Below are positions 472 to 20,380 of a stretch of DNA of 20,380 bases, in pieces. The DNA comes from a virus: IMG/VR virus record IMGVR_UViG_3300037189_000362, positions 1 to 20,380 of that record; one strand, given 5' to 3'. The notes beneath the pieces were generated by a model, which saw nothing but the letters and a program-made list of their open reading frames with translations, ran no database searches and was not told the DNA's origin. Position numbers and translations under genes: made by a program. Within the stretch, counting starts at the first letter, position 1; each line of letters opens with the position of its first letter.

Positions 472-1209
472 TTAGCTCCTCGTCCGCATGATTTCGCGGG
501 AGTACGGATTGAGGTAAAGGTTAGTAGCAAAGGTGCCAAGGTTGCCGCCAATGCTGAGACCAGTGGCCAGCAGGGACGGACTCTGAACGGGCTGCGGGGT
601 AGCCGACAAGACGCGGCCCTGATACTCGCCACGCATGGCTCGCTTGGACTGTTCCATCTGGAATAGGTTGGCACGCTGCTGCTGCTGAGTCACGTTCAGA
701 TAGTCAGCTTCCTTGCGGTAATAATCATTCATCAGGGCATCAACCGACAGGCCACTCACGCCGCCTTCAATGGACGACACGAGGGCTGCGCTGCGTGCCT
801 CAGCCGACTGACGGGCAATCACCTGCATCTCCTGAGAAGCCTTCTTGGACTCCTCCTGCTGACGACGGGAGATGTCCGAATACTGGGAAGCAAGCGACTG
901 TTCGGCAATGGCCTGGTTGGCCGAGTAGATCTGTTTCTGGTAGTCACGCTGGGAAGAAGCCATCTGCGACTGGGTGATGTACCCCATGATCGGAGTAGCC
1001 AAACCAGACAGAAGGCTTGCACCCAACGCGGCGTTCATACCCAGGGCTGCCAAGGGACTCACTGCCCAAGTGGTTGCCGCTGCAGTTGCACCCATAGATG
1101 CTGCCGCACCAGCAGCCGCACCAAGGGCTGCCGTGCCTGCTGCACCGGCTGCGGCACTTGCCGATGCTGCTCCTGCTGCTGCTACTGGAACTGCTGCGAA
1201 GAAGCACAT
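472..1209 (-). CDS. Internal virion protein, T7 gp14-like
   Basis: This 245-residue protein lies between the gp13-like and gp15-like genes, the place of T7 gp14 (196 residues). The first ~100 residues are very rich in Ala, Gly, Ser and Thr and include hydrophobic stretches (for example near LAALGMNAALGASLLSGLA), suited to insertion in a membrane. Residues ~85-190 are charged and Gln-rich (SQRDYQKQIYSANQAIAEQS, ISRRQQEESKKASQEMQ) and probably form a long helix or coiled coil. In T7, gp14 leaves the capsid first and forms a pore in the outer membrane. The ATG at 1209 sits two bases after the gp13-like stop, with an AGGA about 13 bases upstream. The function is inferred from position and composition, because this family diverges quickly. 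Confidence 0.8.
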   Translation of the reverse strand: MCFFAAVPVAAAGAASASAAAGAAGTAALGAAAGAAASMGATAAATTWAVSPLAALGMNAALGASLLSGLATPIMGYITQSQMASSQRDYQKQIYSANQAIAEQSLASQYSDISRRQQEESKKASQEMQVIARQSAEARSAALVSSIEGGVSGLSVDALMNDYYRKEADYLNVTQQQQRANLFQMEQSKRAMRGEYQGRVLSATPQPVQSPSLLATGLSIGGNLGTFATNLYLNPYSREIMRTRS

Positions 1210-1211
1210 GT

Positions 1212-4638: not shown

Positions 4639-4641
4639 TGG

Positions 4642-5247: not shown

Positions 5248-5262
5248 GGGCTCTCCTTTCGA

Positions 5263-6624: not shown

Positions 6625-6659
6625 GTTGTTCCTTGTTGTTTAGGGTTGAGTGAGGAATA

Positions 6660-6688
6660 GGCCAAGAGCCCTTTCGGTACTCTTGGCC
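6660..6688 (-). terminator. Hairpin terminator after the capsid gene (T7 T-phi position)
   Basis: The inverted repeat GGCCAAGAG / CTCTTGGCC gives a perfect 9-base-pair stem, with an 11-base loop that can close further through CC/GG. It begins 20 bases beyond the capsid stop. On the transcribed strand it is followed by TATTCCTC, a weak T-rich run. T7 has its main phage-polymerase terminator at the same place, after gene 10. Partial termination here would lower expression of tail genes relative to capsid. Confidence 0.8.
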
Positions 6689-6708
6689 ATTTGTATTTTC
6701 AAACAGTA

Positions 6709-7698
6709 TCAGGCCGTAGCCAGAACCACCGCCGACTCGGGACGCAGGATGTTGGAACCCATGGCGTACTTAGCCACCATCAGGTTACCCTGAAGGCGCA
6801 TGTCGTACTCGGTTTCCATCGACAGGTCCATCAGCTTCACCGTACCGACAGCACTCTTGTGGAACGCAACGCAGTTGACGTTCGTGAAGGTACCACCGTA
6901 GGTGTTGTTCTGGGTGTTGCTCACAACCTGCTTCAGAATGGCCGCAGCATTGTTGCTCTTCACCAGAGCAATGCCTGCCACCTTCAGCAGCTTACCTTCG
7001 TAGTACGCACCGTTGCTGTCGCCGCCGAAGTCGCGGTCAATCAGGGCCAGACCCTGGGTGCTGTTAACGATGGTCCAGTAGTCATCGGGGGTGACGATGG
7101 CATAGCGATCTTCGCTCGGGACGTTGTTCTTGTCCAGAGCAGCAGCCGCCTTGTACAGACCATCCACGATACCCGCACCGGTGTAAGAAGCGTTTGCAGC
7201 AACGCTATTCTTGGTGGGCATACCAGAGGTGGCCGAAGCCTGACCAGCCAAGCAAGCCAGAGCGATCAGGTTCTTATCGAACTGGTTCGCCAGTGCACGA
7301 CCGATTTCCTGAGCGTAGATCGAACGCACATCGTAGTGGTTCTTCATCTCGTCCAGCTTGTCCACGAACACGCTCGACAGGAGGAGCTTATCAATGTAGA
7401 TAATCTTCTCATTGTGCTTGATGTTGGACAGATAGGTAGAACTGGCCTCAGTAGCAATATCCTCACCGGGGGTGTGGTAAGCCACGCTAGCCACGCCGCT
7501 GGTTGGGAACGAAGCCGACTTGCCGCTGGAAATCGTGCGGATAGTGTGCTTGTCCTTCATCACGGTCGTCGTTTCAAACGCCTGAAGAACCTCACCACCG
7601 AACACCTGAAGGAACAGCGCGTTGTCCGTAGCGAACGTGCCGGTCCAAGTACCCGAACCGTTGGCCTGACCGCCAAGGTTAATCTTAGTAACTGCCAT
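6709..7698 (-). CDS. Major capsid protein, T7 gp10-like
   Basis: The protein has 329 residues, close to T7 gp10A (344). Gene order (portal, scaffold, capsid, terminator, gp11) and its sequence features support the call: a short Gly/Thr-rich start (VTKINLGGQANGSGTWTGTF), the conserved FLQVFGGEVLQAFE, the SGKSASFPTSG segment, the middle IYIDKLLLSSVFVDKLDEMK with the E-loop/spine region, and the C-terminal MRLQGNLMVAKYAMGSNILR. This is the HK97-fold shell protein. It has one of the strongest ribosome binding sites in the window (AAGGAG, seven bases before ATG). A 119-base leader precedes it, the longest gene-free stretch here. I saw no convincing slippery site for a T7 10B-like frameshift near the 3' end. 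Confidence 0.96.
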   Translation of the reverse strand: MAVTKINLGGQANGSGTWTGTFATDNALFLQVFGGEVLQAFETTTVMKDKHTIRTISSGKSASFPTSGVASVAYHTPGEDIATEASSTYLSNIKHNEKIIYIDKLLLSSVFVDKLDEMKNHYDVRSIYAQEIGRALANQFDKNLIALACLAGQASATSGMPTKNSVAANASYTGAGIVDGLYKAAAALDKNNVPSEDRYAIVTPDDYWTIVNSTQGLALIDRDFGGDSNGAYYEGKLLKVAGIALVKSNNAAAILKQVVSNTQNNTYGGTFTNVNCVAFHKSAVGTVKLMDLSMETEYDMRLQGNLMVAKYAMGSNILRPESAVVLATA

Positions 7699-7735
7699 TG
7701 TATGGCTCCTTTAAGTAACAGAATGCGATTGACAA

Positions 7736-7756
7736 GGGACAGCACAAAGCTGCCCC
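7736..7756 (-). promoter_or_regulatory. Hairpin in the capsid leader
   Basis: GGGGCAGC and GCTGTCCC on the transcribed strand pair over eight positions with one A-C mismatch around a five-base loop. The hairpin lies between the candidate promoter and the capsid ribosome binding site. It has no T-run after it, so it is not an intrinsic terminator. It may protect the 5' end of capsid mRNA or be a processing site, as RNase III sites are in T7. Confidence 0.4.
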
Positions 7757-7770
7757 AAACATGGGATGCT

Positions 7771-7795
7771 TTTTCCCTCGACCGTGGTATGACAG
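7771..7795 (-). promoter_or_regulatory. Candidate phage-RNA-polymerase promoter upstream of the capsid gene
   Basis: The 119-base leader (7699-7817) is where T7 has its strongest promoter, phi10. On the transcribed strand this site reads CATACCACGGTCGAGGGAAA. It shares ATAC-AC and a terminal GGGA with T7-type promoters (TAATACGACTCACTATAGGG), but the spacing between these parts is two bases shorter. The call rests on position and this weak likeness, and I found no second convincing full copy. Confidence 0.3.
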
Positions 7796-7817
7796 CCGCA
7801 GCGTGCCAAAGACGATC

Positions 7818-8090
7818 TTACGGATTAAGCTTAGGGTCTTTAGAAGCAGCTCCCTCAGGAGCTACATACCCAGCGTACCAACCCTCGGGTAACGCTACGG
7901 TATTGGATGACAGTTCCCATTCGGAACCGTTCCAAAAATAGACATGGCCCCGGATATCAGGGCCAAGCCTTACTAGATCATGGTCTGCCGGGTGGACGAA
8001 CACGACCCGTGTATTGTTGCACCCGTTTAGAAAACCGGTCGTAGACATTGCCAGGACCAGCAGGGGCATCTTTCGCAAGCGTGCGTTCAT
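7818..8090 (-). CDS. Small lipoprotein, spanin-like (Rz1-type), overlapping its partner gene
   Basis: From the ATG at 8090 this encodes 90 residues. The start MNARLRKMPLLVLAMSTTGF has a positive N-terminus, a hydrophobic core and then LNGC, a lipobox with an unusual Asn at -2. After the cysteine come TRVVFVHPADHDLVRLGPD and later WELSSNTVALPEGWYAGYV. This pattern (VRLG..., then LPEGWY near the end) recurs in small phage proteins encoded beside lysis genes. A longer frame reaches up to 8150, but the signal peptide only makes sense from the Met at 8090. Its first 113 bases overlap the 61-residue gene in another frame, much like nested Rz/Rz1 pairs. Its role is probably outer-membrane disruption at lysis, by analogy only. 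Confidence 0.68.
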   Translation of the reverse strand: MNARLRKMPLLVLAMSTTGFLNGCNNTRVVFVHPADHDLVRLGPDIRGHVYFWNGSEWELSSNTVALPEGWYAGYVAPEGAASKDPKLNP

Positions 8091-8163
8091 TGGCGCGTTC
8101 CCATATCCGACAGACCAATTCCTTAACAAGGGTTTGAATGGCAACCACAATGGCTGCCCACAT
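7978..8163 (-). CDS. Small membrane-associated protein, partner of the lipoprotein (Rz-like position)
   Basis: This 61-residue protein has a hydrophobic N-terminus (MWAAIVVAIQTLVKELVCRI) able to span or lie on the inner membrane. A charged, Pro- and Arg-rich tail follows. Similar tiny proteins with an N-terminal hydrophobic helix and an AKDA...-type tail are common just before the VRLG/WY lipoproteins in phages. The ATG directly follows the stop of the 40-residue gene (TGAATG). Its 3' half is overlapped by the lipoprotein gene. It may be an inner-membrane spanin or an accessory lysis protein. It is shorter than classical Rz proteins and has no clear coiled coil. Confidence 0.6.
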   Translation of the reverse strand: MWAAIVVAIQTLVKELVCRIWERANERTLAKDAPAGPGNVYDRFSKRVQQYTGRVRPPGRP

Positions 8164-8286
8164 TCAATAACCCTTCTTCATCTGAGCGTAGGCTTCCTTG
8201 GACACCGTTGACTTAGACTTCGATCTACTGGTTCCAGCCTTCTTGCGTCGGTTAATGTTAATAACCAAAGCGTTCTTCTTCTTCAT
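8164..8286 (-). CDS. Small basic phage protein, 40 residues
   Basis: The frame begins ATG at 8286 and ends TGA at 8166-8164, encoding MKKKNALVININ, then RRKKAGTSRSKSKSTVS and a final AYAQMKKGY. It is strongly basic. The gene starts one base after the stop of the 76-residue gene and ends immediately before the next ATG. That packing supports a real gene, although it is too short for most gene finders. Similar Lys/Arg/Ser-rich micro-proteins occur in other T7-like phages in the structural region. The function is unknown; its charge suggests nucleic acid or virion binding. Confidence 0.65.
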   Translation of the reverse strand: MKKKNALVININRRKKAGTSRSKSKSTVSKEAYAQMKKGY

Positions 8287-8287
8287 A

Positions 8288-8518
8288 TCAGCATCCCCAC
8301 CTTTTTCGTGCGGCCATTCCTCGCTCACCCTTCCAAGAACTGCTACGAGCGCAGAAGGATTTATGGCGCGGATTGTCCTTATCCTTGGTAGGAGCCTTCA
8401 GGTTAGATCCTGTAGCCTTGTTGTACTTGGCCCGACCCTTGGCAGTAAGACCAGCACCCTGAGATACAGGAAGCTTTTCTCCTCGACCAATCGAAAGGTT
8501 GGGACTGCGGCGGTACAT
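8288..8518 (-). CDS. Small basic protein, resembles DUF6321 family
   Basis: This 76-residue protein includes GAGLTAKGRAKYNKATGSNL, then KAP, then RHKSFCARS and a C-terminal MAARKRWGC. From memory, this matches the DUF6321 pattern (GLTAKGRAKYN..TG.NLK, SFCAR, ..RKW.C), found in many phages near head genes. The family has no established function. The protein is basic and has two well-spaced cysteines. Its ATG overlaps the stop of the holin-like gene (TGATG), so translation is probably coupled. The segment between the two conserved halves is shorter than I recall for the family, where about 20 more residues precede the final RKW.C. Confidence 0.72.
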   Translation of the reverse strand: MYRRSPNLSIGRGEKLPVSQGAGLTAKGRAKYNKATGSNLKAPTKDKDNPRHKSFCARSSSWKGERGMAARKRWGC

Positions 8519-8709
8519 CAGCTATTCTTCTTCATTGACAGGCGTGCGCCGGTATAGCCAAGTGCCACCAGAGCAGCAGTGGCGGTACCCAAGATCTGGC
8601 CCCAAGGACCTTCCATGGGGACCACACCGCTGGCCTGAATCGCGCCAATGGCAACGGCAAACAGGCTCATCCAAAACTCACTCGTCTTATATCCAGGCTT
8701 AAGTTCCAT
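8518..8709 (-). CDS. Holin-like small membrane protein
   Basis: The 63-residue protein starts MELKPGYKTSEFWMSLFAVA and has two hydrophobic segments: residues about 11-31 (EFWMSLFAVAIGAIQASGVV) and 36-56 (WGQILGTATAALVALGYTGA). They are separated by a short PMEGP turn, and the protein ends in a basic RLSMKKNS tail. This N-in, two-helix layout, with the GYK(T/S)(S/T)EFW start and the ALGYT.AR motif, is widely annotated as a phage holin or membrane protein. It has an AAAAGGA ribosome binding site and starts 11 bases after the scaffold stop. T7 has its holin (17.5) far from here, so this position is a rearrangement or an independent gain. Function as a lysis holin is inferred. Confidence 0.68.
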   Translation of the reverse strand: MELKPGYKTSEFWMSLFAVAIGAIQASGVVPMEGPWGQILGTATAALVALGYTGARLSMKKNS

Positions 8710-8720
8710 TGTTTTTCCTT

Positions 8721-9482
8721 TTAAAGGTTAGAACCCTGAGCAATCTTACGAACGACCTCATCGCGGTATGCGGGATCATTCTTGTATCGCGGATCAGACA
8801 TTGCCTTGACCATTTCCGCTGCACTTGAAAACCCGCCAGACTTAGCTGGTCGTCCAGCGATCAGCTTGGGCTCGTTGTTGTTGGCAACGAAACGGGCATG
8901 AAGACCCTGTACTGCGAACAGCATTTGGCTGCGGTCACCAGACTCAACGGCCTTGTTGTACGCCAGAATCTCTTCCTCCTTTAGACTCTGGCGTGCCCAG
9001 TCAATGACCTTGTTGTACGAGTCCTTACCACCAACCGCAGACAAAACCTCTGCCTCGGCCTGGGTCATCACGGCCTGCTGACCAGCAATGAATTGATCAA
9101 CGATGTCCTTGCCAATACCCATCTTGGCCAACTGATCGTAGGACTTGTCACTCAACTTTCCGCTGGTGAAGAACTCCTGAGAGAACTGACTCAGCTTGTC
9201 CGAAGACTCAGCCACTTCAGCCTTGGGGTCAACGTCGTCTTCCTTGTCTTCGTCGCCGGTCTTTGGGTCAGCCTTAGAGCTCAGCTCGGCATACGCCTTG
9301 GCCAGCTCCTCGGGGCTGTTAAAGCCCTCAGGAAGCCACTCAGGGCGATCCGTCTGCTGGGCCTCAGTGCCATCGGCTTCTGCCACGGCATCGGTCTGAG
9401 GGGCTTGCTCCTTGTTCATCGCTTCCTGCTGGGCAGGGCTGAGCGATCCGGTAACATCAGGCTTGAATTCAACTCGGTCCAT
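8721..9482 (-). CDS. Capsid assembly scaffold protein, T7 gp9-like
   Basis: This 253-residue protein lies between portal and capsid genes. It has the expected acidic, low-complexity N-terminal half (AEADGTEAQQTDRPEWLPEG, KTGDEDKEDDVDPKAEVAES) and a helical, more basic C-terminal part. WLPEGFNSPEELAKAYAEL is the usual scaffold signature near residue 50. T7 gp9 (307 residues) guides prohead assembly and leaves before packaging. The C-terminal region (SAAEMVKAMSDPRYKNDPAY, then EVVRKIAQ) resembles the capsid-binding helices of podovirus scaffolds. Start: ATG with GAGGAA close upstream, seven bases after the portal stop. Confidence 0.93.
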   Translation of the reverse strand: MDRVEFKPDVTGSLSPAQQEAMNKEQAPQTDAVAEADGTEAQQTDRPEWLPEGFNSPEELAKAYAELSSKADPKTGDEDKEDDVDPKAEVAESSDKLSQFSQEFFTSGKLSDKSYDQLAKMGIGKDIVDQFIAGQQAVMTQAEAEVLSAVGGKDSYNKVIDWARQSLKEEEILAYNKAVESGDRSQMLFAVQGLHARFVANNNEPKLIAGRPAKSGGFSSAAEMVKAMSDPRYKNDPAYRDEVVRKIAQGSNL

Positions 9483-9489
9483 ATGTTCC

Positions 9490-11079
9490 TCACTGGGTTG
9501 GCTGCATCATACCAGCCGGGGGCTGTTGTGCTGGAGCCAGATTAGGAGAAATAACACCTTCTCGGACTGCTCCGCCCATCTGGTTGATGACGGCTGGGCC
9601 AAGCTTGTTGACCATACCGGCGGCCATCGCCTGATTAGACTCAGCAGCCTGTGACTGCTCATCCTTAAGCAGACCCTGGGGATCAATGCCAAGGGCTGCC
9701 GCACGGCGGGACAGGTATTCCTTGGGGTTAATGTACTGGGAGATAGCCTGGGGGCCAAAGGTCTGGGCAATGCCAGCAAGGAAAGCATCAAGCTTTACAA
9801 GGTCATTGCCACGGCCAAGGGCATCCACGCCGGTAATGACCACCGGCTTGACGAATTCCTTGGGAACCTTGGGGAGCTTCTTGGCCTTCTGCATCAGGTC
9901 CATGATCCGCTTGACCAGCGGGAGCTGGAACTCCTGGGACAGAATGCTATAGATACCGCCTAGCTGCCTCTCAACCGCTGCGGTCGTGAGTCGGATTTCT
10001 TCGGCGGTAACACGCTCAGCATTACGAATCGTTGACTCCGCAAGCAAGAAAGCATAATTAATTCGTTCACGAATCGAAGAGATCGCCTGCATCGCAATCC
10101 CGAGATCAGCCTGCTTTTGTAGCTGTACACATGTGACATCTGCTGCGTTACCCTCTCGGATAGCTCCATTAGGACTCTTGGCAAGGACATCGGCGCGGGT
10201 CATGCCGTTGGGGTTCACGAGGAACAGCACCTTGGCTGCCGCAGCGGAACCCTCAACGATTGCTTGGGTCAGGCCCTCAAGGCTACGGAGATCACCAAGG
10301 TACTCCTCAACGTAGCCACGGCCATAGCTCTCACCGTCCACGCGGTTCATACGAAGGGCAAGCCAAGGCAGGCTGCCCTCCTTGTACTTACCACGGGTGC
10401 TATCAAGGACCACTCCCTTGATTTCCTGGAATGCCGTGAACTCACCGTTCTCTTCACGGTGGATGCAGGTGTACAGGTCAACGGGAGTGTCGCTTCCATT
10501 GCCGTTCATCTCGTCGCCACCAATGGCGGCATAGGCTTCTTCGCTCAGCATGTCCTGAGCAACAGTCTCCTTCACCACAATGTCACACACGTTGCCCATG
10601 GGGTCACGCTTGATGACGTAACGGTTCAGGTGGAACACCCGAATGCCGTTGTCACCAAGATGGATCAGCGCATTGCCAGTAACAATCAGGTGCTTCAGTG
10701 CTTCAAATACAGCCGGTCGAATTGCCTTCGATTCAATCTCCTGCATCACCGACCGCTCAATCGAACTCAAGGTCTGGTCGATCTCCGTGCGGTATTCATC
10801 CATTCCACCCAAAGCCCGGACGGCCTCCTCATCCAGAACCAGACGGAAGAAGGGCTGGTTCGGGGGAAGAAGGCTCATCAACAGGCTGGCTGCAAGATGG
10901 TTTACGCCGCGTGCTCCCAGGCCCTGGAAGGGGGTAGCAAACTGGGTGACGCTGGACGTGCCATCATCAGGAAGAAGGGTGGGAAGGGTGACGCGAGAGC
11001 AATCCCTGCCACGACGAAGGTAAGAATCTCGGTCACTTTCAAGGGTGGAATACAACCTTCGGGCAGAGTAGTCAGACAT
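9490..11079 (-). CDS. Portal (head-tail connector) protein, T7 gp8-like
   Basis: At 529 residues it is nearly the length of T7 gp8 (536). Family landmarks are the N-terminal ESDRDSYLRRGRDCSRVTLP, QGLGARGVNHLAASLLMSLL followed by PPNQPFFRL, the wing segment YVEEYLGDLRSLEGLTQAI, and the stem region NAERVTAEEIRLTTAAVERQ and LGGIYSILSQEFQLPLV. The portal forms a dodecamer at one capsid vertex, through which DNA is packaged and ejected. The C-terminus is Gln/Pro/Met-rich and flexible. The ATG follows an AAGGA in the TAAGGAAATAAAATG context, so the upstream gene's stop codon overlaps the ribosome binding site. Confidence 0.95.
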   Translation of the reverse strand: MSDYSARRLYSTLESDRDSYLRRGRDCSRVTLPTLLPDDGTSSVTQFATPFQGLGARGVNHLAASLLMSLLPPNQPFFRLVLDEEAVRALGGMDEYRTEIDQTLSSIERSVMQEIESKAIRPAVFEALKHLIVTGNALIHLGDNGIRVFHLNRYVIKRDPMGNVCDIVVKETVAQDMLSEEAYAAIGGDEMNGNGSDTPVDLYTCIHREENGEFTAFQEIKGVVLDSTRGKYKEGSLPWLALRMNRVDGESYGRGYVEEYLGDLRSLEGLTQAIVEGSAAAAKVLFLVNPNGMTRADVLAKSPNGAIREGNAADVTCVQLQKQADLGIAMQAISSIRERINYAFLLAESTIRNAERVTAEEIRLTTAAVERQLGGIYSILSQEFQLPLVKRIMDLMQKAKKLPKVPKEFVKPVVITGVDALGRGNDLVKLDAFLAGIAQTFGPQAISQYINPKEYLSRRAAALGIDPQGLLKDEQSQAAESNQAMAAGMVNKLGPAVINQMGGAVREGVISPNLAPAQQPPAGMMQPTQ

Positions 11080-11088
11080 TTTATTTCC

Positions 11089-11304
11089 TTAGGCGGACAG
11101 ACCGCTGCTATATCCAAGACCGCCAACACCACCAAGTGGAATAGTCAGCATTGCCTTACCACGACCAGAAGCCTGGGTACGGTTAATGCCAGAAGCCATC
11201 TCCAGGGGAGAAGCCTGCTTTGCGCTAGCCATTGGGCTGGGCGGGGGTGGTGGCGGGGGCGGGGGGGTTGGCATAGACGGCATCTTGGGTGCGCTGAAAC
11301 ACAT
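11089..11304 (-). CDS. Small proline-rich protein upstream of the portal gene
   Basis: The 71-residue protein begins MCFSAPKMPSMPTP, continues with nine consecutive prolines (11239-11265), and ends in a Gly-rich RGKAMLTIPLGGVGGLGYSS. Short proteins with an MCF/Pro-rich start and a C-terminal Gly-rich hydrophobic patch are found just before the portal gene in several podoviruses, but I know of no proven role. The position matches T7 gene 7.3, a small tail-assembly protein, and this is a plausible counterpart without clear sequence likeness. The ATG has AGGAC seven bases upstream. The poly-proline run would stall ribosomes without elongation factor P. Confidence 0.72.
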   Translation of the reverse strand: MCFSAPKMPSMPTPPPPPPPPPSPMASAKQASPLEMASGINRTQASGRGKAMLTIPLGGVGGLGYSSGLSA

Positions 11305-11314
11305 GGTATTTGTC

Positions 11315-11530
11315 CTAGGTCTTTTTGATTACGTTGTCAAACCGGGTTTCCTGCTGCCTCTTATAGACAGACTTCAGGAAGTCCACGATGTGGCGTTGCC
11401 CTGCATAGTACCAAATGTACCGATCTTCCCAATGAAGCTCAGGGCAACGTGGCGGAAACCGCTTTTCAATGGCCTTGATAAAGTCCAATGTCAGCGTTGG
11501 GATGGGGTCTGTATCTTCCGGTGCATCCAT
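11315..11530 (-). CDS. Small conserved phage protein, 71 residues, unknown function
   Basis: The sequence includes FIKAIEKRFPPRCPELHWED, followed by YIWYYAGQRHIVDFLKSVYK. The pattern 'RFPPRCP....D..IW..AGQR.VVDFL' is one I recall from small proteins in many podoviruses, where it is called hypothetical. It is likely a compact helical domain with one aromatic-rich turn. The ATG is preceded by AGGTGA. The gene is packed between the sigma-like gene and the Pro-rich gene with gaps of eight and ten bases. No function can be assigned. Confidence 0.72.
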   Translation of the reverse strand: MDAPEDTDPIPTLTLDFIKAIEKRFPPRCPELHWEDRYIWYYAGQRHIVDFLKSVYKRQQETRFDNVIKKT

Positions 11531-11538
11531 AAAGTCAC

Positions 11539-11748
11539 CTATTCAATGTCGCTGAGCATGGCCGCAAACTCACGGACCTCTGCTTCAGTCATGTTTCGTC
11601 GGAGCTTTCGCATAGCCCTAAGAGCAATGTCACGAACGTTGCCCTCAGTGAGGTTGTCCCCACTCATGTGATTGTACATGGCGGTTACTTCCCCAAAGGT
11701 ACGAAGCTGTGGGATACGAGAAATGCTGTAGTCATTCTTTGCTGACAT
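11539..11748 (-). CDS. Small helix-turn-helix protein, sigma-70 region-4-like
   Basis: The 69-residue protein has RTFGEVTAMYNHMSGDNLTE followed by GNVRDIALRAMRKLRRNM. This resembles region 4.2 of sigma-70 factors, in which T-F-x-E-I, a turn, then V-R-x-I-E-x-x-A-L-R-K-L-R forms the -35-binding helix-turn-helix. There is no core-binding region 2, so it cannot act as a full sigma factor. It could bind host RNA polymerase flap or DNA, as a regulator of host transcription or of the switch to phage transcription. The strong AAGGAG start and compact packing support expression. The assignment is by motif reading only. Confidence 0.6.
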   Translation of the reverse strand: MSAKNDYSISRIPQLRTFGEVTAMYNHMSGDNLTEGNVRDIALRAMRKLRRNMTEAEVREFAAMLSDIE

Positions 11749-11759
11749 GGTGTTTCTCC

Positions 11760-12149
11760 TTAAAAGGGTTGAGTAAAATCTGGCAGGTCATCAAGCTCAA
11801 CAGGAAGCCGTCCAATTCTAATCATTTCCTGGGTGTGCATCAAGGCCCCAATGTTCCACCGGGCTGCTGCAAGGTGGTCCTCGTCTCGGTGGCCCATCAT
11901 AAACTTGTTCATGTGGCGGATGGCAGAGTCATAGTAACGGGACAGGGGCTGGCCCTTTTCCCAATTCCTATCTCCATACTTCTTGGCACCGAACTCAAGG
12001 TGCCGTGCATCACGCTCCATGACAAATGGGGACAGCAGGTCGAAACGTCCCTTGCCATCGCGGGTATCGCGGCGGCTACCTGTGTCAAACTCTTCCCGCT
12101 TACCAGAGTCCTTGACACCATCGAATGCAAACTTGCTTACGGATTCCAT
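11760..12149 (-). CDS. Probable dATP/dGTP diphosphohydrolase (MazG-like, DUF5664-type)
   Basis: From the ATG at 12149 this encodes 129 residues. It contains GKGRFDLLSPFVMERDARHL, EFGAKKYGDRNWEKG, YYDSAIRHMNKFMMGHRDED and HLAAARWNIGALMHTQEM. The pattern of acidic and His residues on two helices (E-x-x-x-x-x-F-G, then R-H-x-x-x-F-x-x-G-x-x-D-E-D-H-x-A-A) is that of the all-alpha nucleotide pyrophosphohydrolases used by phages on dNTPs or signal nucleotides. The same frame extends upstream to 12689, but this part is only the shadow of the exonuclease gene. The Met at 12149 has GGGAGAG upstream and begins the conserved domain. It overlaps the exonuclease stop by 13 bases, next to DNA metabolism genes. 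Confidence 0.72.
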   Translation of the reverse strand: MESVSKFAFDGVKDSGKREEFDTGSRRDTRDGKGRFDLLSPFVMERDARHLEFGAKKYGDRNWEKGQPLSRYYDSAIRHMNKFMMGHRDEDHLAAARWNIGALMHTQEMIRIGRLPVELDDLPDFTQPF

Positions 12150-12889
12150 TGCTTGATCTCTCCCGTCTTGAAGTTGTACTCGCCGTGCTGGAGTATATGA
12201 GCAACACGCGCCTGGGTCAACGCATCCTCCGCCGTCAGCCCCGCATCCAAGAATGCAGCCAGCACCGCTTCCCATGATGGGGTTGTGTCCACTCCAACAA
12301 TCTTCTCCGCCTTCACCGGCCCCACTCCCGGGCAACCCTTGTAGTTGTCCGTGGTGTCCCCCGTCAGGGTCTGGATGAAATGATTCCTTATAGCCTGGTG
12401 TGGGGTAATAGAGAACCTGTAACCCGTGCGTGGGTTGAAGTGTTCTCCCGGGATTGTCTTGAAGTCCTTGTCCTCCGAGACCATCACCGGCAGCTCCTTT
12501 GGATTGGGGCTGGTGGCCAAGATCCCGGCTACGTCGTCCCCCTCTAAACGCGCATATGCCGCACTCGCATACGTTTGAAGGGCATACTGGCGAACTTCCG
12601 TATAGCAAACAGGTTTGCGGGTAGTCGCCCGGTTCGCTTTGTAGTCGCTCAGGATAGTCATTCTGAAATTGTTCGGGCTGCTCAGGCACAGGGTGATCCT
12701 ATTGGTCTTGAGGTTGTCCTTGATTTCCTGCACGGAAATATCAAACATCTGCTTCGCTTCACGGGCATCGGCATGGAGTGTCCACATGTCGTCGCCCCAA
12801 TTGGTCGCCTTCTCTACCGCAGCACAGGCGTGGTAAAGAAGAATGTCGGCATCAATGTATGCGTGGATTGGCTTCTGTTTACGGCTCAA
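12137..12889 (-). CDS. 5'-3' exonuclease, T7 gp6-like (FEN family), TTG start
   Basis: The 250-residue protein has the flap-nuclease metal sites in order: YIDADILLY (Asp13, Asp15), LEGDDVAG (Glu116, Asp118, Asp119), VSEDKDFKT (Asp140, Asp142) and TGDTTDNYKG (Asp178, Asp181). A helix-hairpin-helix segment CPGVGPVKAEKIV follows. T7 gp6 (300 residues) degrades host DNA and removes RNA primers. The start is TTG at 12889 with GGAGGGG seven bases upstream. The first ATG in frame is at residue 35, which would delete the first metal-binding Asp pair. The TTG overlaps the TGA of the preceding gene (TTGA). The C-terminus is about 50 residues shorter than in T7. Confidence 0.92.
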   Translation of the reverse strand: MSRKQKPIHAYIDADILLYHACAAVEKATNWGDDMWTLHADAREAKQMFDISVQEIKDNLKTNRITLCLSSPNNFRMTILSDYKANRATTRKPVCYTEVRQYALQTYASAAYARLEGDDVAGILATSPNPKELPVMVSEDKDFKTIPGEHFNPRTGYRFSITPHQAIRNHFIQTLTGDTTDNYKGCPGVGPVKAEKIVGVDTTPSWEAVLAAFLDAGLTAEDALTQARVAHILQHGEYNFKTGEIKQWNP

Positions 12890-13107
12890 TCTTCAACCCC
12901 TCCAGCTGTGAGCAGCATACGGGCACACTCAACAAGCCCGATGCAGGAGTGGAACTGTCCAACAGAACAGAACGTCATGTCCTGTGCTGACTTGGTTTTT
13001 GGCTGGCAGCCGATGAACAGCAGGGCATCAAAGCGTGCGCCAAGGATTGCAAGCAACTCGTCTGTGGTGTATCGGTTCAACGGATGAAGCGGATCATGCT
13101 GTTCCAT
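12886..13107 (-). CDS. Small protein of unknown function, 73 residues
   Basis: I do not recognise this protein. It starts MEQHDPLHPLNRYTTDELLA and continues with ILGARFDALLFIGCQPKTKS. It has four cysteines, none in a paired zinc-binding spacing. Both ends are coupled to neighbours: its ATG lies within the last codons of the homing endonuclease gene (14-base overlap) and its TGA overlaps the exonuclease TTG. AAGG is seven bases upstream. This tight packing supports expression. A role linked to replication is only suggested by its neighbours. Confidence 0.6.
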   Translation of the reverse strand: MEQHDPLHPLNRYTTDELLAILGARFDALLFIGCQPKTKSAQDMTFCSVGQFHSCIGLVECARMLLTAGGVED

Positions 13108-13465
13108 AGTCTACCTTCTTTGCTTTCTTGAGATTCTTCAGCAGGCTTTCTCGCGCCGCTGAACCATGGGGAAACTTGTGGGCAGTGAGAATAATATCTG
13201 CTTGATAGGCTTTCTCCCTGAGCCAAGGTCTGATTTTCTTTACAAACTTCCTGGCATCAGGGCCGCACACTTCCCACCGATATGCGTTGCGCCTCGGTGC
13301 CTCGTTCTTGAACATCCTGATCTTCCCAAAACCAAACATCTTTTGGATATCCCTCAGATGGTATGGCCAGCATGAGGTGATATGCACACGGGCGGTCGTG
13401 GTCCACACAAGGCAACCCTCGCCATCGAACAGCCCAGCAATGTAGGCCAGCTCGGTTTTCTTCAT
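13094..13465 (-). CDS. Free-standing LAGLIDADG homing endonuclease
   Basis: The 123-residue protein begins MKKTELAYIAGLFDGEGCLV, a clear single LAGLIDADG motif with the metal-binding Asp/Glu at its end. The usual domain pattern follows: beta strand with HITSCWPYHLRDIQKMFGFG, then YRWEVCGPDARKFVKKIRPW and a final helix with EKAYQADIILTA. A single motif implies it acts as a dimer on a near-palindromic site. Its ATG overlaps the DNA polymerase stop (TAATG), so translation is coupled to the polymerase. Homing endonucleases commonly sit beside the conserved gene they target, here probably DNA polymerase or the exonuclease region. No intron or intein was seen in the polymerase. Confidence 0.88.
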   Translation of the reverse strand: MKKTELAYIAGLFDGEGCLVWTTTARVHITSCWPYHLRDIQKMFGFGKIRMFKNEAPRRNAYRWEVCGPDARKFVKKIRPWLREKAYQADIILTAHKFPHGSAARESLLKNLKKAKKVDYGTA

Positions 13466-15180
13466 TAGTGTGTCTCCGCCCAGTTGTTACCCATGCGTGC
13501 CTCGCCTGCAAGTGGGCAACGGAAGTTGAAGAACTCACCGGCCTTGGTGATGGCCTGCTTTGAACTGTCGATCAGCCAGTCAGCTTCGCTGGGGTCCACG
13601 CTGAACTGGATCTCGTCGTGGATGTGGGCAACCTGCTTGGCACTGGAACCCATGCGTGCAATCTCACGGTTGATCCCAACGGTTGCACGCTTCATCACCA
13701 GCGCACCGGCGGATTGAAGTAGGGTGTTGAGAGCGGCGTGCTCTGACCGAATGTTCAGTCGCCTGCCATCAAGTCCAATCAGGTAACCACGGGACTTTGC
13801 CGCAGACTCCACGGCTGACTTCAGGGCAGCCAGTGCCGGGACCTTTTCAAGGAACTGCTTCTGCATCCGCTTGCCTTCCTTGGCACCACCGCCGATGAGG
13901 GACCCAAGCTTGACTGGTCCTGCACCGTAGAGGAATGCGTAGATGAATCCCTTGGCTGCATTGCGGGTAGGCAGACCGGCAGCCTTCTGATTAGCCGTAT
14001 GGATGTCGCCTTGCAGCAACTCCTTGGCATAGTCACCATTATCCCACTTGGCCATGTAGTGGGCAAGGCATCGAAGCTCAAGACCTGAGGCATCACAACC
14101 AACCAGCACATGGCCTGGGTCTGAAAGAAAAAGCTCACGACATTCCTTACCGTAGGGAGAACCGCAGGATGGAACTTGGGCCATGTTAGGTCCACGGTGT
14201 GTGCACCTGCCGGTCACTGCACCGTTGTGGTTCACGCTGCCGTAGATGCGGCCACCGCGCTCCACCTTGATCCAAGCCTCATCACCTTCGGCCAACATAC
14301 CGATGCGCTTCTGAAGTAGCAGGTACTGGCTGAGCTTCTTGGCAATCGGGTACTCAAGAGAAGATAGGACAGACTCATCCACCTTCGCTTCACCGGATGG
14401 GGTAAAATCTTCAGGCTCCCACCCGTGCATGGTCTTCAGCGCAGCCGCGATCTGCTGCCTGCTGGCTGGGTTGAATAAGATCTCCTTAACCTTCGTCTTC
14501 ATCTGAATAATGGTTGGCGGTACGGTGGTGACCAACTCCTGGTTGATGGTCTCGCGCTCAGACGAGAGCTTGGCATACAGGGCGTTGGCCTTGTCCTTAT
14601 CAAAGGCAAAGCCATTGCGGACCTGCTGTGCAATGCACTCGGCAAACTCGTGCTCAAGGATCAGTGCCTCCTCCGCACACTTCGGCATCAGATGCTGGTA
14701 GAGCTCACGAGTAACCACAATGTCCTGCTTGCAATACTCGGCAAGTTGTGGGGTGAACTGAAGGTTCTTCCAGTCGGTGACTTCGCTACCGAACTCATTC
14801 TTCAGGTGGCCAAGGCGGTGGCCCCAAGCCTTCAGCGAATGACTGCCAATGAACTCCTTCGGGAATCCGCTGGTCTGCCAGTCACTGTCCTTGATGTCAG
14901 GGCTGGTAAGGCGAGCCATCACAAGGGTGTCACGAACGCAGCCGCTTGGTCCTGTCCACTTTGGGAACAGCTTCTTCAGCACAGGGATATCAAAGGCAAT
15001 GATGTTGTGGCCGATGATCTCGTCTGCATTCTGCAACTCAACTAGCGCAGCTTCGATTGCAGCCTTGTCATCACCGTTAACAACAAACTCCTTGTTGTCA
15101 TAGCCAATACCAAGGCAGACAATCCTGCTGACGCTATCCAGCAAGCCGTCACACTCAATGTCAAAATAAACTCGGTGCAT
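13465..15180 (-). CDS. DNA polymerase, family A, T7 gp5-like, without thioredoxin-binding insertion
   Basis: The 571-residue enzyme copies the phage genome. The 3'-5' exonuclease motifs are present: VYFDIECDG (Asp7, Glu9), GHNIIAFDIPVL (Asp64) and YCKQDIVVT (Tyr149, Asp153). Polymerase motifs are complete: VGCDASGLELRCL (Asp363), RNAAKGFIYAFLYG (Arg406, Lys410, Tyr414) and HIHDEIQF (His521, Asp522). The end GNNWAETH matches T7 GPNWAICH. The thumb goes almost directly from the helix near ETINQEL to LFNPASRQQ, where T7 has its thioredoxin-binding loop, explaining much of the shorter length (T7 704). An open frame reaches 15294, but only the ATG at 15180 gives the conserved start; GAGAG lies upstream. 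Confidence 0.97.
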   Translation of the reverse strand: MHRVYFDIECDGLLDSVSRIVCLGIGYDNKEFVVNGDDKAAIEAALVELQNADEIIGHNIIAFDIPVLKKLFPKWTGPSGCVRDTLVMARLTSPDIKDSDWQTSGFPKEFIGSHSLKAWGHRLGHLKNEFGSEVTDWKNLQFTPQLAEYCKQDIVVTRELYQHLMPKCAEEALILEHEFAECIAQQVRNGFAFDKDKANALYAKLSSERETINQELVTTVPPTIIQMKTKVKEILFNPASRQQIAAALKTMHGWEPEDFTPSGEAKVDESVLSSLEYPIAKKLSQYLLLQKRIGMLAEGDEAWIKVERGGRIYGSVNHNGAVTGRCTHRGPNMAQVPSCGSPYGKECRELFLSDPGHVLVGCDASGLELRCLAHYMAKWDNGDYAKELLQGDIHTANQKAAGLPTRNAAKGFIYAFLYGAGPVKLGSLIGGGAKEGKRMQKQFLEKVPALAALKSAVESAAKSRGYLIGLDGRRLNIRSEHAALNTLLQSAGALVMKRATVGINREIARMGSSAKQVAHIHDEIQFSVDPSEADWLIDSSKQAITKAGEFFNFRCPLAGEARMGNNWAETH

Positions 15181-15187
15181 TGTTCTC

Positions 15188-15391
15188 TCACTGTTCTCTG
15201 GCCTCAAGCTCTTGAAGCTTGTGGGCAGTTCGGTTGTATCGCTCACGGAGCATTGTCGCTTCGGCGGAAACCTCCATGAGCTTGGAGCGTACACTAACCA
15301 GCTCTGCCTTGGCTGTCAATAGGTCAAGCTTACAGATTCGCAAATCTTCTTCAACGTTTTTGAAGGTGTTCCACATCTCAGTGTTCTCCAT
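15188..15391 (-). CDS. Small coiled-coil protein, 67 residues, unknown function
   Basis: The protein begins MENTEMWNTFKNVEEDLRIC and consists almost wholly of charged heptad-like helix (KAELVSVRSKLMEVSAEATM, then LRERYNRTAHKLQELEAREQ). It is probably a short coiled coil. It overlaps the preceding 73-residue gene by 14 bases and starts seven bases after GGGAG. Its stop lies seven bases before the DNA polymerase ATG. No family is recognised. Its place between helicase and polymerase hints at a replication-associated or merely co-expressed role. Confidence 0.65.
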   Translation of the reverse strand: MENTEMWNTFKNVEEDLRICKLDLLTAKAELVSVRSKLMEVSAEATMLRERYNRTAHKLQELEAREQ

Positions 15392-15599
15392 TTTTAAGCT
15401 CCCGCTCCAGTTTGTTAATCCTGTCTAACGCTTCCAACCATGTCTCCTTGTCATGCGCGAAGCAGTCCCATCGCCACTTCTCTGCAATCTTGTGGGGATC
15501 TGCTGGTGATAGCTTGTCGCAGTACATGATACGGGCCTCATCGCGCTCCAGTCGAAGCCGCTTGATCATCTGCTCCTTCACCCATCTGATGTCTTCCAT
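15378..15599 (-). CDS. Small protein of unknown function, 73 residues
   Basis: I do not recognise this protein. It is highly charged, starts MEDIRWVKEQMIKRLRLERD and ends LDRINKLERELKNGEH, so both ends look helical. The centre has WRWDCFAHDKETWLEALDRI, rich in Trp. The ATG directly abuts the TAA of the primase-helicase gene (TAAATG), with AGGAG six bases upstream, so it is translated right after the helicase. It may be a partner of the replication proteins; no motif supports a specific function. Confidence 0.68.
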   Translation of the reverse strand: MEDIRWVKEQMIKRLRLERDEARIMYCDKLSPADPHKIAEKWRWDCFAHDKETWLEALDRINKLERELKNGEH

Positions 15600-17057
15600 T
15601 TAAAACTCCTGTGCCTCGTCGTTGAACTCCTGGCCCTGTGCCGGGAGTGGTACTTCGGAAAGCCTACCAGTGTCACGGTTGTAATGTAACGCCGTGGCCA
15701 GTCCAGTCTCGCCGGTGAATCGGTTCTTAAGCACACGCATCTGAGTCACGTCCTTGGACTCAGGGTCCTGCTGGTTACGCTCAAGGCCGATGCAGAAGTC
15801 TGACAGCTGAGCAATGGCAGCAGATCCACGGAGCTGGCTGAGGCTGGTCTGAGCACCTTCCTCATGGCCCTTGCCCTCAGGTCGCTTCAGGTGTGACACA
15901 AGGATAAGACCGCAGCCAAGCTCCTCCACGAGGGACCGAAGCGAAGTCATCGTATTGTCGATGAGCCGCCGCTCGTCACCCTCACCCATTCCTGAAACGA
16001 CAATCGAAAGATGGTCAAGGAAGATCCAATTACAACCCATACCACGCACCATGTAACGAATGCGGCTAAGCAGATTATCCGAATCAATAGATCCAAAGTG
16101 GTCGTATAGATATACCCGGCCACAACCAACGCTCTGTTGGTACGCATTCTTCATGTCCTTCTCTGTGATGCCATCCATGCTGATGTGCAGGGGCTTGTTC
16201 ATTGCGATACCCATGAGGCCCAACGCGGTGCGTCGGATGGATTCCTCAAGGGCAATGTATCCAACGGTCTGGCCCTGAGCAATAAGCCAGTGAGCCAGCT
16301 CACGACAGACGCTTGACTTTCCGATGCCGGTGCCTGAGCACAGGGTGATCAATTCACGCTGGCGCATACCCATGGTCATCTTGTTCACGCCTTCCCACGG
16401 GTAAGGGATTGCCTCAATGTTCGGAGCGTTGATGATGGCATCCCACAGTTCGGTGCCGGGGACAATGCCATCAGGGCGGAACGTCTTGGCACTCCACGTT
16501 GCATCCATCAGCTCCTTGCCCTTGCCTGCTACGAGCATGTCGTTGGCATCCTTCAGGGGAAGAGAAGCGATCTTTGCCTTGCCTGGTGACAGGAGAAGCG
16601 CGGCTTCCTTAGCAGCCTTCCTACCTGCGTCGTCCTGATCGAACATGATCACGACCTCTTCGAACTTCTCCAGCCACTCAAGGTTATTCTTGATTGCCTT
16701 GGCTGCATTGCTGGCACCGTTTGGGATGGACACCACCGGCCACTTGTTTCCCTGAAGCTGGCTCAGGCTGAGGCAGTCGATCTCACCTTCGGTCAATGTC
16801 ACACGCTTGCCGCCGTCACGCCACAGGTGTGAACCGTACAGTCCCATGGACTTGGCATCGCCAAGGATGAGGAAGTCCTTGTTGGGGAATCGAACCTTCT
16901 GTGCCACGGGATTACCGGCGGGGTCACAGTAGGTAGCCACCTGCACGGGGTTGCCGTTGTATGTGGCAACGCCGTACTTAAAGAAGCGGCAGGTCTCTTC
17001 GTTAATCATCCGCTTGTTCAGCGGGAGGTAATTGATATCAAGCAATGCGCTAGGCAT
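15600..17057 (-). CDS. Helicase-only short form from an internal start (T7 gp4B-like)
   Basis: Within the primase-helicase frame, Met57 (ATG at 17057-17055) is preceded by AGGAGAG six bases upstream, a much better site than that of the full-length start. Translation from here gives a 485-residue protein without the zinc-binding domain (Cys18-Cys40) but with the Toprim and helicase domains. T7 makes its 56-kDa gp4B in the same way, from Met64. The ATG lies in the linker after the zinc domain, as in T7. Use of this start is predicted, not shown. Confidence 0.75.
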   Translation of the reverse strand: MPSALLDINYLPLNKRMINEETCRFFKYGVATYNGNPVQVATYCDPAGNPVAQKVRFPNKDFLILGDAKSMGLYGSHLWRDGGKRVTLTEGEIDCLSLSQLQGNKWPVVSIPNGASNAAKAIKNNLEWLEKFEEVVIMFDQDDAGRKAAKEAALLLSPGKAKIASLPLKDANDMLVAGKGKELMDATWSAKTFRPDGIVPGTELWDAIINAPNIEAIPYPWEGVNKMTMGMRQRELITLCSGTGIGKSSVCRELAHWLIAQGQTVGYIALEESIRRTALGLMGIAMNKPLHISMDGITEKDMKNAYQQSVGCGRVYLYDHFGSIDSDNLLSRIRYMVRGMGCNWIFLDHLSIVVSGMGEGDERRLIDNTMTSLRSLVEELGCGLILVSHLKRPEGKGHEEGAQTSLSQLRGSAAIAQLSDFCIGLERNQQDPESKDVTQMRVLKNRFTGETGLATALHYNRDTGRLSEVPLPAQGQEFNDEAQEF

Positions 17058-17572: not shown

Positions 17573-17589
17573 CGCTTCGCCTAAGCGTA

Positions 17590-18237: not shown

Positions 18238-18261
18238 GGTGTCTCCAAAAAGGATTGGCGA

Positions 18262-20380
18262 TCAGGCGAAAAAGTAGTCAGCATTCCGTAGCTGACTAAT
18301 GTCCAGCGAGCCCTGCTTCGGGGGATCAGGAAGACTGATTCCCTTCGGGAGGTACTTGCTCATCTCAGAGTGTACACCATGAAGCAGGGGGTTGTCAAAC
18401 ATATCAACCGCACATTCCCGAATAATTGTTGAAATGCTTCCTGCGTCAGCAGGGCACACACCAAAGCTGTCGTGGATGCAGCTGATGTCTGTGATGCCAC
18501 AGTTCTTGGCCATGTTCACAGTCCGCATAAGCAGTGCGGCATCAAGACTATGGACAAAGTTGGGACTGATGCCGTTGACGTTGCGCTTCTTGCTGAGCTC
18601 TGTGCCGTCAACAATCATGCGGTGCTGCCTGATGGTGTGCCCGATGCTGGTCTTGACCATTACCTTGCTGGACTTCTTGTAACCCTGCTCCACCAGGAAT
18701 CCCGTAGGTGCAGTCCATCGGATCGGAACATTGGCATCAATGTGAATGGCTGCCACCTGCTTGAGCCAGTCCATGCACTCTCGTGCCGCCACAACAGTCT
18801 CCGAAATTGCGTCCCAAATGAGTCCACTCAGGAACAACACAGGTTGGAAACTGTCCAGTTTACCGAACGGTGCGTTGCCTGTAGACTTTGCCTTGTCACG
18901 ATACCACTCATCGACGTACCCACGGGCACTGTATTGGGTCAGCCCGTAGGGCAGGCACATGACCACACGCTTGGTTGTCTTGCGGTCGATTCCAAATGCC
19001 AGCCAGGTCTGTGCCAATGGATCGACGATGGCTACCAGCTTCTCCTTCACCCTGTCAGCAACGATCTGGTAGATGTCCTGAGGTGTGTCGGTCTGCACAC
19101 AGTTGGTAGCCAAGGCTCCGATGGGGTCCTTCAGCAGCAGAGAAAAAATCTGGAGGCCGTTGTTAGAGCCATCCAGATGAATCGGAAGTCCGCTGCTAGT
19201 ACCAGGATTGTCATGCACACGGGCCCACTCCATGGCGAACGCAAGAAATGACCAAGGCTTGTCTGCCTCAGTCCACTCCATGTTTGCCAAGGGGTCACGA
19301 CCAGCAGCAAGGATCATGTTGTGGTTGTCAGTGATCCAGCCCACTCGTGACTTGAAGTCCACCTTGTCCATGCCCCAGCTGTTGGCACCATGGACAGCCA
19401 GCCAACTCATGGCATTGTCGTCAACAGGCTTGCCCTTGGTGAACGTCAGCAGGGACCGCTGCCAGTCAGCACCTTGGTTGTTCAGGAAGATCGGCTTGGG
19501 GTAGACGCGGCCACGAAAGTCCAGCTCTTGGGGGAAGTAAATGGATCGACCACCAAACTTCTCAGCCAGCCAAAGGGTCTTGCTGACGGCCACACGTTTG
19601 GATCGGTCAGCCTCGTTGTCACAGTGGATCTTTGCTGCGGCCTTGCGCCAAGACCTACGGGCATCCACGTTGGTGTCAATGTCCACAGGCTTCGGTGGGA
19701 TAGGTGATCCTGATCGGCTAGGCAAATCACCAATCGAAATGTCCTGCTCCCAGCAGTGGCGAAGCACTTCGGCAACACGACTATTGACAGTCCACTCTGT
19801 CTCCTGAATGTTATTCACTGCCTGATAGACCTCAGGCATCTCCAGGTTATCCAGGGTTGCCAGGTACTTCCTACTGTGGACCTTGACCATGGGCTTGCGA
19901 CCAAAGGCCACACCGAAGTAGCCGCCGGTCCACACCGAATCCCACTTGCGTGGGGTAACGATCATGGGCATGTACACAGGAGCCAGCAGCGTGGCTGCAT
20001 CGTGACTCTTCTCAAGCCATTCCAAGAACTCATCTGTCCCTCTCACAAGGACAGTCTCCTTGCCCAGTGCATTGCTACGGTTGATGGTGTCAATGATCCC
20101 AGTGTGCTGCCGCATGAGCTCCACAAGGACCAGCCCAACGGCTGTCCGATCCTTGGGTGACCACTTGGGAAGCACGATGTTCTGGTACTTGGCAGAGCGG
20201 GAGATGTGCTTGATCTTGGTCTGGTCGCTAGGCTGCCTGCTTAGGTTCTTCATCATTAGCCGCCAGAATCCCTTGTGATTCTTGGCCAGCCAACGGAACT
20301 TGGATTCGTCTTCGATGAGGCGACCAAGGGTTACCGCTAGGGATGTGATGGTGCGGCTCGACGTGATGCCATCAATGACC
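18262..20380 (-). CDS. Single-subunit DNA-directed RNA polymerase, T7 gp1-like (5' end cut by window)
   Basis: The frame is open to the right edge, so the N-terminus is missing. An internal Met at 20256 is not the start, since in-frame sequence above it (TLGRLIEDESKFRWLAKNH) matches T7 ALGRSIEDEARF. Numbering from that Met, catalytic parts are LDGSNNGLQ (Asp362, T7 Asp537), TTKRVVMCLPYG (Lys429 and Tyr437, T7 Lys631 and Tyr639) and CIHDSFG (His595/Asp596, T7 His811/Asp812). The specificity-loop region is around residues 531-548 (KVMVKTSIGHTIRQH). The C-terminus ends DYFFA, like T7 FAFA, which closes the active site. The enzyme transcribes middle and late phage genes from phage promoters and pulls in DNA at entry. 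Confidence 0.97.
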   Translation of the reverse strand, partial: VIDGITSSRTITSLAVTLGRLIEDESKFRWLAKNHKGFWRLMMKNLSRQPSDQTKIKHISRSAKYQNIVLPKWSPKDRTAVGLVLVELMRQHTGIIDTINRSNALGKETVLVRGTDEFLEWLEKSHDAATLLAPVYMPMIVTPRKWDSVWTGGYFGVAFGRKPMVKVHSRKYLATLDNLEMPEVYQAVNNIQETEWTVNSRVAEVLRHCWEQDISIGDLPSRSGSPIPPKPVDIDTNVDARRSWRKAAAKIHCDNEADRSKRVAVSKTLWLAEKFGGRSIYFPQELDFRGRVYPKPIFLNNQGADWQRSLLTFTKGKPVDDNAMSWLAVHGANSWGMDKVDFKSRVGWITDNHNMILAAGRDPLANMEWTEADKPWSFLAFAMEWARVHDNPGTSSGLPIHLDGSNNGLQIFSLLLKDPIGALATNCVQTDTPQDIYQIVADRVKEKLVAIVDPLAQTWLAFGIDRKTTKRVVMCLPYGLTQYSARGYVDEWYRDKAKSTGNAPFGKLDSFQPVLFLSGLIWDAISETVVAARECMDWLKQVAAIHIDANVPIRWTAPTGFLVEQGYKKSSKVMVKTSIGHTIRQHRMIVDGTELSKKRNVNGISPNFVHSLDAALLMRTVNMAKNCGITDISCIHDSFGVCPADAGSISTIIRECAVDMFDNPLLHGVHSEMSKYLPKGISLPDPPKQGSLDISQLRNADYFFA

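Follow-up and report, generated by a model that had tools for sequence, protein, structure and literature searches.

The window analysed here is a stretch of 20,380 nucleotides. It forms part of the genome of a T7-like phage known from environmental DNA alone, and its genes are located on the minus strand. The first part of the minus-strand gene order includes RNA polymerase, SSB, RusA, primase-helicase, DNA polymerase, a LAGLIDADG-like ORF and exonuclease. These are followed by a dATP/dGTP hydrolase-like domain, the 69-aa ORF which is the subject of this work (main ORF), a PHROG 4970 protein, a small gp7.3-like protein, connector, scaffold, capsid and tail proteins. The gp-numbers given to these genes are presumed assignments, taken in part from reference-phage annotations. 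The features relevant for the analysis are:

11539..11748, minus strand: main ORF, 69-aa stand-alone sigma-region-4.2-like helix-turn-helix (HTH) protein, ATG start
11749..11768, minus strand: short stretch 5' of the ATG of the main ORF, with a Shine-Dalgarno-like AAGGAG (from the sequence)
11760..12149, minus strand: upstream neighbour, stand-alone dATP/dGTP diphosphohydrolase N-terminal-like domain, 129 aa (Pfam PF18909, E 1.8e-20)
11315..11530, minus strand: downstream neighbour, small conserved PHROG 4970 protein, 71 aa (phrog_4970, E 7.5e-10)
9490..11079, minus strand: head-tail connector, T7 gp8-like, used as a synteny anchor (phrog_449, E 3.5e-169)
18262..20380, minus strand: phage single-subunit RNA polymerase, its 5' end beyond the window (Pfam RNA_pol, E 2.4e-88; phrog_414, E 1.1e-212)
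13094-13465, minus strand: LAGLIDADG-like ORF between DNA polymerase and exonuclease (Pfam LAGLIDADG_3, E 7.9e-4, below cut-off)
1669-4638, minus strand: nozzle (gp12-like) protein (Pfam Phage_nozzle at residues 1-667)
5263-6624, minus strand: 453-aa ORF between the capsid and gp11-like genes (relatives in L002, L006, L019 and L022)

The main ORF is found where the original prediction placed it and contains the quoted TFGEV and LTEGNVRDIALRAMRKLRR. It is separated by 11 bp from the end of the preceding gene and by 8 bp from the next one. The preceding hydrolase-like gene lacks the remainder of that enzyme and is among the best conserved small genes, with 76-100% identity in relatives. The LAGLIDADG-like ORF, a putative homing-type endonuclease, occupies the same slot in relatives (46-97% identity) and seems to be fixed, not sporadic. 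The C-terminal third of the nozzle protein contains a long linker of poly-glycine and, judged by eye, a fibronectin type III-like domain. No Pfam match at E <= 0.01 was obtained for the 453-aa ORF, which we take to be reminiscent of SGNH hydrolases.

Despite the presence of the phage's own RNA polymerase, no repeated T7-type promoter motif was found upstream of 22 genes (472-20256, minus strand) beyond the level of shuffles, so the main ORF is not assignable to a promoter class. A promoter consensus scan gave no excess, Rfam had no match, and no operator, promoter or partner was identified for the main protein.

Conservation of the gene

All 20 relatives with a connector identity of at least 69% were considered. 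Three of them (L006, L019, L022) start too late to cover the slot. The remaining 17 contigs all (17/17) carry a homologue of the main ORF in this slot, upstream of the PHROG 4970 gene, which is itself present in 17/17 loci. The hydrolase-like gene precedes the homologue in 16/17 loci, the exception being the L012 contig, which starts inside the slot. Besides the window protein there are 12 distinct homologues with 26-96% identity to it, giving a family alignment of 13 sequences. The dN/dS values for three divergent pairs (0.067 for window vs L003, 0.131 for L009 vs L012, and 0.081 for L011 vs L013) correspond to purifying selection; the pairs among the window, L001 and L002, as well as L012 vs L015, differ too little to give a meaningful ratio. 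With its Shine-Dalgarno sequence, purifying selection and fixed slot, the main ORF is a real gene.

A homologue was not detected in 19 contigs with connectors of <= 50% identity, although 12 of them have matches to the exonuclease, PHROG 4970 and the connector. Searching 50,697 phage records by tblastn with three family members as queries gave nothing credible (best E 3 to 4), and scanning the viral contigs with the L021, L012, L017 and L024 members added no contigs to the known relatives. A match in L004 was rejected as a homologue, being a short stretch within a large unrelated protein. In eight reference phages, inspection by eye of the small genes in the equivalent region revealed no sigma-4-like protein, and the family profile found no member in the reference-phage loci (best outsider E 0.79).

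Similarity to region 4 of sigma factors

Searches with single sequences stay below the thresholds. Pfam Sigma70_r4 (PF04545) matches the window protein with E 0.054 and 13.5 bits (12.6 bits in the record scan) while the cut-off is 24.1 bits, and ranks third behind TTRAP and UPF0147. Only one of the 13 family members matches Sigma70_r4 in Pfam at E <= 10. Neither Pfam, PHROGs nor NCBIfam contains an above-cut-off match for the window protein, the PHROG matches having E 0.19 and 0.37. TTRAP (E 0.015), UPF0147 (E 0.049) and NCBIfam PRK04330 (E 0.081) were dropped on these single-sequence scores, which are sub-threshold and come from one or two members only. When 10,831 viral ORFs were searched with an RpoD HMM, the window clade came first, but with E 0.039, and the other members were missed.

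With the family profile the resemblance does appear, for subregion 4.2. For RpoD region 4, an alignment was prepared from C-termini collected by a genome pattern scan, which listed 80 loci; a usable region was present in 78 of these, and removal of two odd ones left 65 distinct sequences. Comparison of the 13-sequence family with it by hhalign gave a score of 26.8 over 44 columns (probability 52%). Column shuffles, which preserve composition, reached at most 20.7, none of the 300 attaining 26.8. The family subset without the window clade still scored 22.8 (0/150 shuffles as high). Among the controls, GerE/LuxR and HTH_3 were at the null level, 47 and 28 of 150 shuffles, respectively, scoring as high, and ECF region 4 was weakly above null. 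The control alignments consisted of 29 (GerE), 27 (HTH_3) and 28 (ECF region 4) sequences, drawn from 90 control loci after exclusion of five on account of their length and of L211, whose strand was not given; there were 12 comparisons in all. Eleven other protein families of the window scored 7.0-16.7 against the same RpoD alignment, a further 11 having been left out as they had too few homologues.

Against PDB sequences, the best match of the family profile was 1tty_A, region 4 of Thermotoga maritima RpoD (E 0.032), and four of the five matches were sigma factors. A reverse scan of 398 Pseudomonadota genomes at E <= 0.001 gave two matches, both sigma factors and both, by reading of their sequences, of the RpoH type. 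At E <= 0.1 matches appeared in 86/398 Pseudomonadota and 58/299 Bacillota genomes (697 genomes in total), and most of them span the recognition helix only (profile positions about 36-60). Among the best 60 places, 51 are sigma-70 region 4 as judged by the RpoD HMM at E < 1e-3 (26/30 and 25/30). The other nine include one stand-alone ORF (L280, see below) and eight places without a sigma signal. As far as sequence comparison goes, the sigma-4 likeness exceeds chance and is confined to subregion 4.2 (H3, H4 and perhaps H5).

Predicted structure

The AlphaFold model of the window protein (pLDDT 79, pTM 0.51) has helices at residues 18-29, 35-53 and 56-68, and the model of the L021 member (pLDDT 75, pTM 0.48) agrees with it in having three helices. 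Foldseek against PDB gave no match at E <= 0.001 for the window model, for which sigma factors are mixed with calmodulins at E 2.9 to 9.7, and none significant for the L021 model. The best viral model for the window protein is A0A6J5M239, an uncharacterised 73-aa phage protein (E 2.1e-3, TM 0.67). In VIA-align the top eight rows for the window model are sigma chains (Z about 3, rmsd 3.5-3.8 A). They place residues 11..62 of the model on 566..611 of Escherichia coli sigma70, with the same six-residue offset as in the sequence alignment. For the L021 model no sigma chain is among the matches listed, the best rows being TEAD DNA-binding domains and histone folds (Z 2.5-3.4).

The sub-threshold single-sequence scores and the weak and inconsistent fold matches would fit a resemblance due to chance or composition. 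The product would then have no homology to sigma 4.2; it would be small and helical, with one helix amphipathic and basic, and would have an accessory role in structure, virion or ejection; the position of the gene, which adjoins the block of virion genes beside the gp7.3-like and connector genes, would suit such a virion role. We consider this explanation improbable, as it does not account for the failure of composition-keeping shuffles to reach the observed score, for the lack of matches to other HTH families, for the predominance of sigma region 4 in the best places of the reverse scans, or for the single register obtained by both sequence and structure.

Residues kept and lost

The alignments allow the two helices of the putative HTH to be assigned as follows:

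11662..11697, minus strand: first HTH helix, residues 18-29, FGEVTAMYNHMS, aligned with sigma H3 (AlphaFold helix 18-29; hhalign, MAFFT)
11590..11649, minus strand: recognition-like helix, residues 34-53, TEGNVRDIALRAMRKLRRNM, aligned with sigma H4 (AlphaFold helix 35-53; alignments)

T34 of the window protein aligns with T583 of E. coli sigma70, and relative to sigma the alignment contains six extra residues between the two helices. The equivalents of the scaffold residues are kept, each in 13/13 members: E/D575, V576, an aromatic residue (F/Y) at 580, T/S583, R/K588, A594 and K/R597. In the window protein R39, R44 and K48 correspond to sigma R588, K593 and K597. The recognition-like helix has a net charge of +4, and the net charge is about 0 in the window clade and +2 to +7 in the other members.

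Equivalents of R584 and E585 are found in none of the family members (0/13 for each). The position of Q589, another sigma residue that touches DNA, is occupied by Asp in 12/13 members. In sigma, R584 and E585 make the specific base contacts to the -35 element, according to excerpts of PMC2613000. Replacement of these -35-reading residues suggests that the window protein is probably a small DNA-binding regulator with its own specificity, and it is unlikely to read -35 boxes. The original prediction of a sigma-70 region 4 HTH without the rest of a sigma factor is thus borne out as to the relationship, which the profile comparison and the reverse scan support, but not as to -35 recognition. The window protein cannot be a sigma factor either, because region 2, which binds the core and the -10 element, is absent from the 69-aa ORF; the latter holds the 4.2-like part only.

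Subregion 4.1 (H1-H2) is absent as well: similarity begins at sigma H3, and AlphaFold shows three helices only. H1, H2 and H5 are described in excerpts of PMC2988021 as the contacts of sigma to the beta flap. Since half of the flap-binding surface is absent, a gp2-like or RNAP-redirecting role, as originally suggested for this protein, is possible but not favoured. In that role the protein would mimic region 4 on the host RNAP, competing for the beta-flap tip helix or occupying -35 regions and so shutting down or redirecting host transcription in the manner of T7 gp2, Xp10 P7 or lambda Q. The similarity to sigma 4.2 itself speaks for such a mimic, as does the precedent of lambda Q, whose HTH is shared with sigma region 4 and which competes with region 4 for binding to the beta-flap tip helix (PMC7171158, in excerpt). 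The T7 gp2 family (PF16857) was found in none of four records including the window, so the slot of a host RNAP inhibitor may be open, but this is weak evidence because gp2-type inhibitors may be too diverged to detect. Against a mimic stand the absence of H1-H2, which belong to the surface that touches the flap, the loss of the -35 base-reading residues throughout the family and the location of the gene after exo and before the connector genes rather than in the early region. Altogether, we regard a host RNAP mimic as quite unlikely.

The apparent lack of T7 lysozyme, which had been brought into the argument for such a role, agrees with our searches: Amidase_2 was found in 0/8 records. This search covers the Amidase_2 type of lysin, three of the eight records being 34-40 kb long; ends may be missing from the records, and the window is a fragment. 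The missing lysozyme has no bearing on what the small protein does.

We find it very unlikely that the product is a sequence-independent or a replication or packaging DNA-binding protein (nucleoid-like, recombination- or terminase-associated HTH) instead of a transcription regulator: its exonuclease and nucleotide hydrolase-like neighbours and the conserved Asp at the Q589 position, unlike promoter-reading HTHs, would fit, but it is specifically the sigma family that the protein resembles, and no terminase gene adjoins the main ORF in the window.

Proposed function

Overall, the window protein can best be considered a stand-alone, re-specialised HTH of the sigma-4.2 type, acting as a DNA-binding regulator near the switch from replication to morphogenesis; we give this reading a probability of roughly 0.55. 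Against it speak the sub-threshold single-sequence scores, the hhalign probability of 52%, the restriction of most genomic matches to the recognition helix, the moderate confidence of the AlphaFold model, the fold matches that lack significance, the net charge of about 0 in the window clade and the failure to identify an operator, promoter or partner.

The mode of action that we infer for the window protein, comprising DNA binding, dimerisation, a regulatory role and its timing, would be as follows. Its HTH may be derived from subregion 4.2 of a sigma-70/RpoH-type factor, or be convergent on it in detail. DNA would be bound through the recognition-like helix, and the protein would probably form a dimer or pair with a partner through its C-terminal helix. 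The base-reading face is changed and the turn is longer; the DNA specificity is expected to be other than TTGACA. We speculate that this small protein regulates transcription at about the point where replication genes give way to morphogenesis genes, which is where its own gene lies.

A bolder version of this history is that a T7-like phage lineage captured subregion 4.2 of a sigma factor, stripped it of the -35 readout and of the flap-binding half and lengthened the turn, making a regulator which helps to pass transcription on from the host to the phage polymerase, or from the replication genes to those of the virion. We hold this to be doubtful; if true, it would mean that a sigma fragment operates beside a single-subunit RNA polymerase.

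Much of what T7-like phage genomes encode is small proteins without an assigned function. Tying one such family to an exact piece of sigma yields a testable prediction as to its DNA-touching residues and its missing partner surface. The re-specialised HTH proposed here would show how a module for promoter recognition can be excised and put to new use, and would add a regulator to a phage group without a gp2-family or Amidase_2 (T7-lysozyme-type) gene in the records searched.

Comparison with related small ORFs and known systems

Two further small ORFs resemble sigma 4.2. One is a 68-aa sigma-4.2-like HTH ORF in a 39-kb relative, G002 (L177:13914-14120, minus strand; Sigma70_r4 E 0.0016), located directly after the primase-helicase gene. 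Unlike the window family, a member of which is also carried by G002, it has a canonical HTH without the six-residue insertion, and among the viral contigs it has no relative outside its own contig. The presence of this second ORF suggests that stand-alone sigma-4.2-like proteins may recur in this phage group. The other is a 64-aa stand-alone ORF in a bacterial chromosome, G240 (L280:1462-1656, plus strand; Sigma70_r4 E 5.4e-4). It shares the lengthened turn with the window family, followed by VRRIEAQALRKLR. It lies near a guanylate-kinase-like ORF, and the stretch is possibly a mobile element. The two ORFs are bridging stand-alone proteins toward sigma 4.2 and speak for the relationship of the window family to it.

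T7 gp2, Xp10 P7 and T4 AsiA, small regulators of host RNAP, have in common with the window protein that they are small phage proteins. In contrast to them, the window protein is like region 4 itself rather than like something that binds region 4 or RNAP; of the three, the gp2 family was compared by profile and gave no match.

Lambda Q is larger and belongs to a temperate phage, where it acts on host RNAP. It is a known example of a phage protein whose HTH is like that of region 4, and the likeness of the lambda Q and Q21 antiterminators to sigma region 4 is, as in our family, limited to the HTH (PMC7171158, in excerpt). The window protein differs from them in having no Q-family match, and its phage has an RNA polymerase of its own. 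No stand-alone sigma-4.2 protein of T7-like phages was found in the literature searched by titles and the starts of abstracts.

The closest known system is region 4.2 of sigma-70 (PF04545) of the RpoD/RpoH type. The family differs from it in consisting of proteins of 69-90 aa which stand alone, without regions 2-3 and without 4.1 (H1-H2), in having a turn longer by six residues, in lacking R584 and E585, in the replacement of Q589 by Asp and in scoring below the Pfam cut-off. What the family and sigma share is the HTH scaffold, its register, a long recognition helix ending in RAxxKLR and possibly an H5-like C-terminal helix.
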